Assembly: GCA_031081715.1 (NCBI GenBank)
Contig: JAVHMA010000005.1
Coordinates: 62,001 to 126,000, forward strand
DNA: 64,000 bases
Reading direction: 5' to 3'
From: Armatimonadota bacterium
GTDB lineage: Bacteria > Sysuimicrobiota > Sysuimicrobiia > Sysuimicrobiales > Humicultoraceae
Shown: one piece after another, positions 35,746 to 38,663 of the stretch
Layout: every line of letters begins with the position of its first letter
How positions within the stretch are numbered: position 1 is the first letter of the stretch
Program-made: the position numbers and the translations under genes
The notes under the pieces: model-generated
What the model was told of the DNA's origin: nothing
What the model saw: the letters and a program-made list of their open reading frames with translations, nothing else
The model's database searches: none

Positions 35746-37167
35746 TCACCGTCGAACACCGGTAAAGAGCACGGCGACCCGCTCGTCGCGGGCCACCGTG
35801 CCCGCGCGCACCAACGCGAGCAGGCCGGCCAGCCCGGCGGTCCCGGTGTGGTCGGCGTCGATGCCCGTGGCGGTGCGGCCCAGCTCGTTGGCCTCGTGCA
35901 GGGTGGGTTCGTCCACGACGACCGGCCAGCCGCCGCTGTTGAGCATCCCCCGCGTGACAGCCAGCCAGTCGTAGGTTTCGTCGTCGAGGATGCCATGCGC
36001 GACGCTGCGAGGCTCCTGCTCCCACGGCCACATGAAGGCCGACCGGTGCGTCGCCGCGTGGCGGAGCGCCGCCTCCACAGCGGCGCGCGCGTCGGGCGCC
36101 GCCAGCCGGTCCGCCAGGTCGCGGGGAGCCAGATTTGCGCCTGCCCTGGCCGCGGTCGCGTCCCCGACCAGGCGCGCGACCGCGTGGCCGGCGACCAGGT
36201 CGTAGGCGCGCTTGAGCGGGTAGCCCCCGGCGGTTTGCACCGCGTGCAGCCGCGGCAGCCGCGCCAGCGCGCCGAGGCGCACCGCGTCCTCGAACGCCTG
36301 CACGCACGCGCTCGCGAGCGCGCCGCCGCCCACCTGTACCATCACGCGGTCGAGCCGCCCCTGCGCCGCGCGCAGGTCGGAGACAATCTCGTAGCCGAGC
36401 GTCTTGCCGCCCTCGATGGTCAGCCCGTTGTCCGGGCCCTGGCAGGTGAACGGAAAGGCTCCGCGCTCCAGCGCCCGCCGCAGCGCGTGGTAGGTGGGGT
36501 CACCCGGTACACCGTCGTCCCGGGCGCAAACCTCGAGCCGCGCGCCGAGCCGCTCCAGCCGTTCCACCACCGGCCGTTCGGCCCAGGTCGGCACGAAGAC
36601 ACGCAGCGACCTCCCCCCCGCGCGCGCCACCACGGCTGCCGCGAGCGCCGCGTTGCCGCAGCTCGCGATGGCCAGTTCCCCCACCGCCGGCGCCCCCCCA
36701 ACCCCCGCGACCACCTCCAGGTGGACGAGCAACCCCATCAGGTGCCGCGCCTTGTGCGAGCCGGACACGTTGCCGGTCTCGTCCTTCACCCAGACCCCGC
36801 CGTCGGCGGCGAAGCCGAGTCGGTCGGAGAGCGCCGCCTGACGCCCAAACGGCGTTACGACAAACCCGCGGCCGTCCACCCCGGCTATGGCACGGTCGAG
36901 GCGCCGCACGAGCCCGACGTAGGCACCGTCGTCCAGTCCGCGGCTCCGTCCCAGGTGGTACCCGTAGGACAGCGTCCGGTAGCGCACGAAGGGGTTGGCC
37001 GCCGCCTCTCCGGGAAACCGCAGGCGCGCCGGGTCGAGCACCACGGTCATCACATGGTCGATGTCGTCGCCGGGCCGCGCGTGGCGGCAGCGCACCGGCA
37101 GCGGATCCCCCTCGGGCGCCGCCGCCCCGCACCCCGCGCAGACGACCGCCACCGGCAACGCGCTCAC
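35746..37167 (-). CDS. PLP fold-type II enzyme, threonine-synthase-like, with N-terminal Cys motif
   Basis: The 473-residue protein has a short Cys-rich start (CAGCG and VRCRH, residues 10-29), then a tryptophan-synthase-beta-type PLP domain. [20 protein letters not shown] holds the PLP lysine (Lys-139), [20 protein letters not shown] binds substrate, and [17 protein letters not shown] is the phosphate loop. Relatives are threonine synthase, threonine deaminase and diaminopropionate ammonia-lyase. It lies where ygeX (diaminopropionate ammonia-lyase) would be expected in YgeW loci but is not a standard YgeX. GTG 37167 overlaps the upstream gene as GTGA. Confidence 0.75.
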
Positions 37168-38663
37168 CGGGCCGGCGCCGCCGCGGTCCGGCTGTTGAAC
37201 TCCTCGATCATGGCGTCCCAGATCGCCAGGAGGTCTCGCAAGTCGCGCCAGAACGCCTGGGAACGCCGCGCCTCGAACGCCTCGAGCGCGACCCCCTGCT
37301 GCTCCACCCAGGTGTAGTACCCGAGGTTGAAGATGCGGGCGCGGTCGCGGTGCCCCAGCTCGAGCAGATGGTCGGTCGCGACGCCGGCCAGGCACTCGCC
37401 GAAAACCTCCCCGGCCGCCGTGAGGTCGAAGCCCGACGGAAAGTCGCGACGGAGCGTCTTCTCCCGCTCGGTCCCGTACATAGCCGCGCTGTCGGTGGCC
37501 ACGGTGATCAGGACGTCGCGCGGCCCGAGGCCGTAGTACTTCGCGATCTTGATCGCGGCCAGCACGTTGCAGATGCTCGACAGACCCAGCGCCCCGAGCG
37601 CACCAACCAGCGGGGCCGGCACCCCGCGCCGGGTGATCAGGTAGTCCTGCCCCACCTCCGTGTTGAAGAGCACGTCGAGGCGGTCGGTGCTCCGGTCCGA
37701 GATCGCGACCACCAGGTCGGTGTTCGTCACGTTGTGGATGAGGGGAATGTGCTTGTCGCCGATGCCCTGGATGTTGTGCTCGCCGAATCCGTTGTAGAGC
37801 ATCGTCGGGCACTCGAGTGCCTCCACCGCAACGATCCTCGCGCCGCAGCGCTCCTTCAGATAGTCACCCGCCCCGAGCGTGCCGGCCGACCCCGACGCGG
37901 AAACGAACGCGGCCAGCCGCAGGTCGGGCGATCGATTGCGCAGCGACTCGAACACGTGCTCCAGCGCGCGGCCGGTGCACAGGTAGTGCGCCAGGTGGTT
38001 CCCGAACTCGCAGAACTGGTTGAAGATCACCGTGTCGGGCTCGCGCTCGAGCTCGGCGCACTTGTCGTAGATCTCTTTGACGTTGCTCTCCGTCCCCGGC
38101 GTCCGGATGATGTCCGCGGGGTCGGCCACCCAGCGCTCGAGCCAGGCGAACCGTTCCCGGCTCATGCCCTCGGGCAGCACCGCGATCCCCCGGCAGCCCA
38201 TGATCCGCGAGATCGCCACGCCGCCGCGCGCGTAGTTGCCCGTGGACGGCCAGACCGCGCGGTGGACGGTCGGGTCGAACTGCCCGGTGACGATTCGCGG
38301 CGCGAGGCAGGCGTACGCGGCGAGCACCTTGTGGGCGCGGATCATGGGGAACCGATCGCCCAGTGCGACCACGATCGGCGCGTCCACACCGGTCAGCGCT
38401 CGGGGAAGCACCAGGTGCTCTGGCGTGGGCGCGCTCCCACGCCGGGACGCGTCGTTGTACCAGTGCACCCGGAACAGGTTGAGCGGGTGCGGCGCGTCGG
38501 GGTCTACCTCCGCCAGCGCGTGGCGGACCGCCGGGGCGATGCGGCTCGGGATCGCGAGTTCGCCGAACGTCGGCAGGACGACCCCCGCCTCTCGGAGTCG
38601 GCCGACCGCGCGCTCGTACGCGACACGATCGACGACGGTCCTCTCCAGGCCGAGTGTTCGCAT
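37164..38663 (-). CDS. PLP-dependent lyase-like protein of unknown substrate
   Basis: The 499-residue protein is a diverged fold-type II PLP enzyme. [17 protein letters not shown] likely holds the PLP lysine (Lys-112), [19 protein letters not shown] is the substrate loop, and [19 protein letters not shown] the glycine-rich phosphate site. It is larger than cysteine synthases (about 310) and keeps extra segments such as [19 protein letters not shown] know of no certain reaction. Neighbours suggest elimination of ammonia from a diamino acid or ureido amino acid. ATG 38663 follows AAGGAG. It overlaps the next PLP gene by four bases, so the two may form a complex. Confidence 0.72.

Follow-up and report, generated by a model that had tools for sequence, protein, structure and literature searches.

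We describe here a pair of overlapping genes in a 64,000-nucleotide stretch of DNA from an Armatimonadota bacterium (assembly GCA_031081715.1, contig JAVHMA010000005.1, positions 62,001 to 126,000 of the forward strand), which is called the window throughout. The two genes encode pyridoxal-phosphate (PLP) proteins of fold type II, here named PLP2 and PLP1 in the order of their transcription, and they stand at a locus where the 2,3-diaminopropionate (DAP) ammonia-lyase YgeX would be expected. The features of the pair are as follows.

37164 to 38663, minus strand: PLP2, a fold-type-II PLP protein of 499 amino acids with an ATG start, from a deep clade beside the cysteine synthases.
35746 to 37167, minus strand: PLP1, a fold-type-II PLP protein of 473 amino acids with a GTG start, from a deep clade beside the threonine synthases.
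37164 to 37167, minus strand: GTGA overlap between the PLP2 stop and the PLP1 start, with likely translational coupling.

Transcription runs through PLP2 (38663-37164), whose start is preceded by the Shine-Dalgarno-like sequence GGAAGGAG, and then through PLP1 (37167-35746), whose start codon overlaps the PLP2 stop codon. An initial annotation of this DNA had given the coordinates, the overlap and the lengths of 473 and 499 residues correctly and had left the strand unstated; both genes lie on the minus strand, and a plus-strand reading of 35746-38663 was rejected, since no gene-like protein is found there. Both proteins match PF00291 above its cut-off of 35 bits (PLP1 with 113.5 bits, PLP2 with 43.1 bits), and no NCBIfam model scores above its own cut-off for either of them. 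The hallmarks of fold type II are intact in both, namely the PALP domain, the Schiff-base lysine, the asparagine loop, the glycine-rich phosphate loop and the fold itself. PLP2 has the lysine K112 (in an SHK or AHK motif), a PSTGN loop and a GSAGT loop, all invariant, and PLP1 has K139 (in GSHKARH), an SC170GN loop and a GGGA loop. The Cys-rich head noticed earlier in one of the proteins is a CxxCG...C motif in the N-terminal segment of PLP1, common among its relatives and not universal.

In profile searches, PLP1 lies nearest to threonine synthases, followed by serine dehydratases and racemases, and PLP2 lies nearest to cysteine synthases. AlphaFold2 models of the single proteins are confident (mean pLDDT 95.5 for PLP1 and 92.0 for PLP2) and have PLP folds; their best Foldseek matches are threonine synthases (PLP1) and cysteine synthases and CBS (PLP2). 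A maximum-likelihood tree separates three groups: a PLP1 clade on a long stem beside ThrC-like proteins (support 100/100), a PLP2 clade beside CysK/CysM (100/99), and a clade of YgeX-type enzymes (100/99) that holds neither PLP1 nor PLP2. The two proteins are not close paralogues of each other (hhalign probability 1.9). Neither of them falls within the characterised threonine synthases, and the view that neither is a standard YgeX or DAP ammonia-lyase holds, as both stay below all family cut-offs and outside the YgeX clade. With the YgeX models (NF006058, TIGR03528 and TIGR01747), PLP1 reaches 12.4 bits to NF006058 (cut-off 276) and PLP2 gives no match. Other assignments were ruled out as well: PLP1 is not a ThrC (best 80 of 303 bits with TIGR00260 and PRK08197, separate clade), an OrtB (14.8 bits, cut-off 550) or a cysteate synthase (19.7 bits, cut-off 325), and PLP2 is not a CysK, CysM or CBS (best 69.7 of 344 bits, separate clade). 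Elsewhere the genome encodes ThrC proteins above the TIGR00260 cut-off (L004, L005, L007), three dehydratases and a CysM homologue just below cut-off. YgeX was rightly expected at this locus and its absence is real: in the whole genome, no DAP ammonia-lyase, hence no true ygeX, scores above cut-off (best 86 of 276 bits), and the best candidate was rejected as a threonine-dehydratase-like gene.

The pairing of PLP2 and PLP1 is not due to chance, because homologues about 40-77% identical are spread over at least seven named phyla, mostly with the two genes side by side in unchanged order. When bacterial and archaeal genomes were scanned with PLP2, at least 584 relatives came up, and the best 80 loci, which cover these phyla, were studied with gene calls from our own codon-usage script. 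PLP1 is present in 51 of these 80 loci and is the next same-strand downstream gene in 50 of the 74 in which the next gene could be read. The gaps between the two genes mostly measure a few bases, a 4-base overlap recurs in 14 of the 50 adjacent pairs, and the usual gene order is XdhA-SsnA-PLP2-PLP1. A more distant branch of PLP2 is paired with a ThrC-like protein, beside HyuA and YgeY in one genome (G020) and beside HyuA in another (G032). On plasmid records we found no PLP1 and just two solo PLP2 genes, on the Rhizobium plasmid pRspNXC24a (L120) and on a Bosea plasmid (L121), both near genes of the TauE/SafE sulfite-exporter family and M20 peptidase genes.

Within the window, the pair is embedded in a tight run of minus-strand genes, given here in the order of transcription.

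50571 to 52979, minus strand: second molybdenum hydroxylase large subunit, xanthine-dehydrogenase-like (from its translation, with homologues in related loci).
47885 to 50566, minus strand: molybdenum hydroxylase with fused Fe-S and Mo domains, matching the architecture of E. coli XdhD (from the translated open reading frame).
46566 to 47900, minus strand: SsnA-like aminohydrolase (PRK07203 420.7 bits, cut-off 444; next other family 166 bits).
45562 to 46566, minus strand: LLM-class F420-type oxidoreductase, candidate yanthine reductase replacing YgfK (assigned to the family only).
41305 to 44615, minus strand: ECF-type transporter with two ATPases, a T subunit and a probable S subunit (by reading; S subunit without a Pfam match).
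40070 to 41308, minus strand: YgeY (TIGR03526 413.8 bits, cut-off 321.5).
38689 to 40068, minus strand: HyuA-type dihydropyrimidinase (TIGR02033 451.9 bits, cut-off 393), followed by PLP2 and PLP1.
34749 to 35702, minus strand: carbamoyltransferase 1, aspartate-carbamoyltransferase-like.
33759 to 34736, minus strand: carbamoyltransferase 2, ornithine-carbamoyltransferase/YgeW-like (YgeW model 170 bits, cut-off 500).
32782 to 33729, minus strand: carbamate kinase (TIGR00746 366 bits, cut-off 358).

This gene content is that of a reductive uric-acid pathway cluster. YgeY, HyuA and carbamate kinase each score above their curated cut-offs, and the SsnA-like protein stays just below its own, yet far above all other families. 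The pathway was established in E. coli and C. difficile (PMC12507026; also PMC12990295). It starts with the conversion of uric acid to yanthine by XdhD and a reduction by YgfK or UacX, for which a proposed F420-dependent luciferase-family variant has been described in Chloroflexota; SsnA, HyuA, YgeW or UacY, and YgeY catalyze later steps, and YgeX converts DAP to pyruvate and ammonia (PMC12507026). The ureide or YgeW-locus context suggested by the initial annotation can be refined to this pathway; the two carbamoyltransferases of the window are not YgeW by its model (170 and 25.6 bits to TIGR03316, cut-off 500). They are 75-88% conserved as a tandem (33759-35702, minus strand) across distant genomes (L039, L065, L135, L136). 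No YgfK was seen in the window, and the LLM protein is present instead. This protein adjoins SsnA, is 83% identical in Nocardioides (L065) and is a candidate F420-dependent yanthine reductase outside Chloroflexota.

The distribution of the pair follows that of SsnA. Among 43 genomes of the window's phylum, all 11 with a strong SsnA have PLP2 at E<1e-60, and just one further genome, G022, has such a PLP2, on a 3.7-kb contig (Fisher p=2e-9; the sampled genomes are related, so that p-values are indicative only). A DAP ammonia-lyase is absent from all 11 SsnA genomes. In a sample of 396 Actinomycetota genomes, PLP1 was found in 19, or about 5%, which is a lower bound given that large searches score few candidates per genome. 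Leaving aside Austwickia, PLP2 is present in 18 of 18 of these genomes and adjoins PLP1 in 17, and SsnA reaches at least 220 bits in 17; the corresponding numbers in PLP1-negative controls, taken from the listed negatives and not at random, are 0 of 11 for PLP2 and 0 of 11 for SsnA above 155 bits. When SsnA was sought in 229 genomes of the Rubrivivax class, again with few candidates scored per genome, a single hit came up, and the known Rubrivivax SsnA was itself missed.

Individual clusters reveal how the pair relates to YgeX. In Rubrivivax (L083), the order is XdhA-SsnA-PLP2-PLP1-YgeW-YgeY-YqeA-YgfK-amidase-HyuA, with YgeX absent from the cluster, with the pair at the site that YgeX occupies in E. 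coli and with YgeW, YgeY and YqeA 81%, 82% and 75% identical to the E. coli proteins. The Austwickia cluster (L145), XanQ-YgfK-SsnA-HyuA-XdhA...PLP1-YqeA-YgeY-YgeW, is complete and otherwise E. coli-like and has PLP1 at the YgeX position; PLP2 is encoded elsewhere in this genome (L107), in which a DAP ammonia-lyase was not found. An Actinomycetales locus (L094) has YgeY-YgeW-DAP ammonia-lyase-PLP2-YgfK-SsnA-HyuA-XdhA, with a lyase of 315 bits (cut-off 276) and no PLP1; in Aminobacter (L097), where PLP1 is missing, PLP2 is preceded at a distance of 9 nt by a DAP ammonia-lyase of 468 bits. Across 63 PLP2 genomes, the lyase is found in 5 of the 38 that have PLP1 and in 12 of the 25 that do not (p=0.004). 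Where one of PLP1 and YgeX occurs, the other thus tends to be missing, and PLP2 occurs with either. Since PLP2 stands beside true DAP ammonia-lyases, it is not simply one half of a YgeX substitute. The initial annotation had proposed a shared step or a complex; the functional coupling is borne out by the co-occurrence in the 18 Actinomycetota genomes. The two proteins do not have equal roles, as it is PLP1 that alternates with YgeX.

The enzymes for ureido removal vary among PLP2-PLP1 clusters. Some have YgeW and YgeY, seven close relatives have two carbamoyltransferases and carbamate kinase with no YgeY above cut-off, and others have an allantoate-amidohydrolase-like carbamoylase together with a nitrilase-like amidase. 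Because the pair remains constant while these enzymes change, its substrate would lie after ureido removal, which points to DAP. In the seven relatives without YgeY, the tandem carbamoyltransferases might strip both ureido groups as carbamoyl phosphate, yielding two ATP. The urate clusters with a TIGR01879-type carbamoylase and/or a nitrilase-like amidase in place of YgeW/YgeY (L043, L047, L077, L080, L099, L146) are a further pathway variant. A short protein of about 683 residues, whose match to the YgfK model is confined to the first 400 residues of that model, replaces full-length YgfK in several loci (L046 at 9408-11459, L044, L047, L059, L099, L111).

We favor the explanation, to which we assign a probability of roughly 60%, that the PLP2-PLP1 pair is a conserved module of two enzymes by which organisms lacking YgeX complete the reductive uric-acid pathway. 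XdhD, yanthine reductase, SsnA, HyuA and the ureido-removing enzymes would make DAP, and the module would then convert it to pyruvate and ammonia. PLP1 would be a non-orthologous replacement for YgeX from the threonine-synthase lineage, carrying out an alpha,beta-elimination. In an hhalign comparison with DAP ammonia-lyases (probability 99, E 3e-18), K139 of PLP1 falls on YgeX K77 and the invariant C170 on D120. Asp120, in a TDGN motif, is invariant in 8 DAP ammonia-lyases; PLP1 has SCGN and PLP2 has PSTGN. Serine racemase presumably has its Ser84 at the same motif position. Lys77 and Asp120 have been named as the likely catalytic residues of YgeX, and roles of K56 and S84 have been described for serine racemase (PMC4000059, PMC6424897). 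With C170 on D120 and K139 on K77, PLP1 resembles an eliminase whose second-base position is taken by a cysteine; Lys139 would be one base and Cys170 the putative base on the other face. PLP2, from the cysteine-synthase and thus a beta-replacement lineage, would be expected to act at the beta-carbon, most likely in removal or replacement of the beta-amino group, just before or beside PLP1 and with the same C3 diamino acid as substrate. In the sample, PLP1 never turned up in the absence of PLP2, which suggests that it depends on PLP2, by substrate or by contact. We infer the substrate, the reaction of each enzyme and the order in which the two act. The new reaction in ureide breakdown for which the pair had been taken as a candidate is possible; the pair may simply run the known DAP-to-pyruvate conversion with different enzymes.

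Several observations weigh against this explanation. PLP2 persists beside a true DAP ammonia-lyase (L094, L097), which is unexpected if the pair equals YgeX, and PLP1 never occurs without PLP2 in our sample, although it would be expected to if PLP1 alone were the equivalent of YgeX. A DAP ammonia-lyase is also encoded in three PLP1 genomes (G066, G071, G336), with partial matches in two more (G337, G338), and the replacement of Asp120 could mean a different reaction. Furthermore, PLP2 is often found in Alphaproteobacteria that have no PLP1 and, for the most part, no SsnA; there it lies next to CoA-transferase, LLM, F420-biosynthesis or xanthine-dehydrogenase-like genes, or amino-acid transporters, and the role of this solo PLP2 may differ. 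In seven such loci (L085, L086, L091, L110, L113, L060, L102) it adjoins CoA-transferase subunits and an LLM protein, in several of them with FbiC (F420 biosynthesis) and L-serine ammonia-lyase; these loci possibly belong to another F420-dependent catabolic pathway. In two others (L103, L109), solo PLP2 stands directly behind what reads as a polar amino-acid ABC transporter, and L109 also has creatinase-like and AsnC-type regulator genes close by; here PLP2 perhaps serves the catabolism of another diamino compound.

Other explanations have to be weighed against the two-enzyme module. The lineage of PLP2 lends itself to a two-step route through serine, in which PLP2 would swap the beta-amino group of DAP for water, giving L-serine and ammonia, and PLP1 or a serine ammonia-lyase would release pyruvate and a further ammonia. 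The Foldseek matches of PLP2 include Fn1220, solved with L-serine, the profile matches of PLP1 include L-serine dehydratases and serine racemases, and the lack of PLP1 genes without PLP2 in the sample is as expected of a dependent second step. One urate cluster (L044) contains an L-serine ammonia-lyase above the TIGR00720 cut-off, and so do the alphaproteobacterial loci L085, L086 and L091, where it lies close to PLP2. However, these are just 4 of the 80 loci, and PLP2 beside a true DAP ammonia-lyase (L094, L097) is left unexplained, so that we regard the serine route as unlikely. An undescribed deamination at the beta-carbon of DAP by PLP2, for example hydrolytic to serine, with PLP1 completing the conversion to pyruvate, is likewise a tentative idea; if true, a sizeable fraction of uric-acid degraders would end the pathway via an intermediate other than that of E. 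coli. We are also doubtful that one enzyme turns D-DAP into L-DAP and the other eliminates L-DAP. The ureido intermediates are proposed to be R (D) configured (PMC12990295), and the invariant Cys170 of PLP1 lies at the position of the D-face base (PMC6424897); both points fit such a split, and since E. coli YgeX takes both isomers (PMC12507026), its replacement could need two proteins. Yet Asp120 is retained in those YgeX-type enzymes that occur alongside PLP2, and a racemase would be superfluous there. To our knowledge the cysteine-synthase branch contains no racemase, an argument against PLP2 in this role.

The tight adjacency, with a median gap of a few bases, the recurrent 4-base overlap and the lack of PLP1 genes without PLP2 would also suit two subunits of one heteromeric enzyme, neither active alone. 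We consider this rather improbable, as the genes lie far apart in Austwickia and apart in G369, many genomes have PLP2 without PLP1, and the two are not close paralogues. An earlier action on a mono-ureido intermediate such as albizziin, by beta-elimination of urea, would make YgeY unnecessary, in line with the seven close relatives that keep the pair without it. But YgeY and PLP1 occur together in the window, in Rubrivivax and in Austwickia, and the two carbamoyltransferases of the relatives could remove both ureido groups; we therefore hold this explanation to be improbable. Finally, the nearest solved relatives would allow PLP1 to be a housekeeping threonine synthase or dehydratase and PLP2 a cysteine synthase, placed here by chance. 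This is very improbable, since both proteins stay far below all family cut-offs in separate deep clades, other genes of the genome code for a ThrC above cut-off and a CysM homologue, and PLP1 and PLP2 follow SsnA in their distribution.

The uric-acid pathway thus probably has a second way to finish, in many unrelated bacteria without YgeX. This new variant is carried by two PLP families, and no characterised member of either was found. The reductive uric-acid pathway itself was elucidated as recently as 2025; it bears on gut urate balance and gout therapy as well as on purine recycling in soil and water. The published neighborhood survey took PF00291 as marker for YgeX (PMC12507026), and its pathway distribution treats any PF00291 protein as YgeX; because PLP1 and PLP2 both match PF00291, such clusters would have counted as having YgeX, with two unnamed families standing in its place. 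The PLP2-PLP1 pair can serve as a marker for this second form of the pathway among environmental bacteria. Both families receive an assignment that can be tested, and they add two new candidates for enzymes of non-protein diamino acids.

A comparison with known systems sets the two proteins apart. OrtB and cysteate synthase, named PLP families of similar size, give only weak matches to PLP1, and neither an OrtA-like partner nor such a pathway context was seen. Cysteine synthases and CBS are the nearest relatives of PLP2 in fold and sequence and have equivalent carboxylate- and phosphate-binding loops, but PLP2 has about 90 additional N-terminal and about 100 additional C-terminal residues and forms its own clade. 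ThrC is the nearest relative of PLP1 in fold and sequence, and the CxxC...C head is reminiscent of the zinc ribbon with which some ThrC proteins begin; PLP1 differs in its low ThrC score (80 of 303 bits), its own 100/100 clade and the presence of other ThrC genes in the genome. With YgeX (EC 4.3.1.15), PLP1 shares fold type II, the pathway slot and the catalytic lysine, whereas it is only about 20% identical, lies outside the YgeX clade, has Cys170 for Asp120 and carries an additional N-terminal head and an insert; PLP2 is further off from YgeX (hhalign probability 54 versus 99) and accompanies PLP1 in every sampled genome. Compared with the pathway of E. coli and C. difficile, the window has the XdhD-like and SsnA-like proteins, HyuA, YgeY and carbamate kinase in common, while it has PLP2-PLP1 in place of YgeX and two other carbamoyltransferases in place of YgeW.

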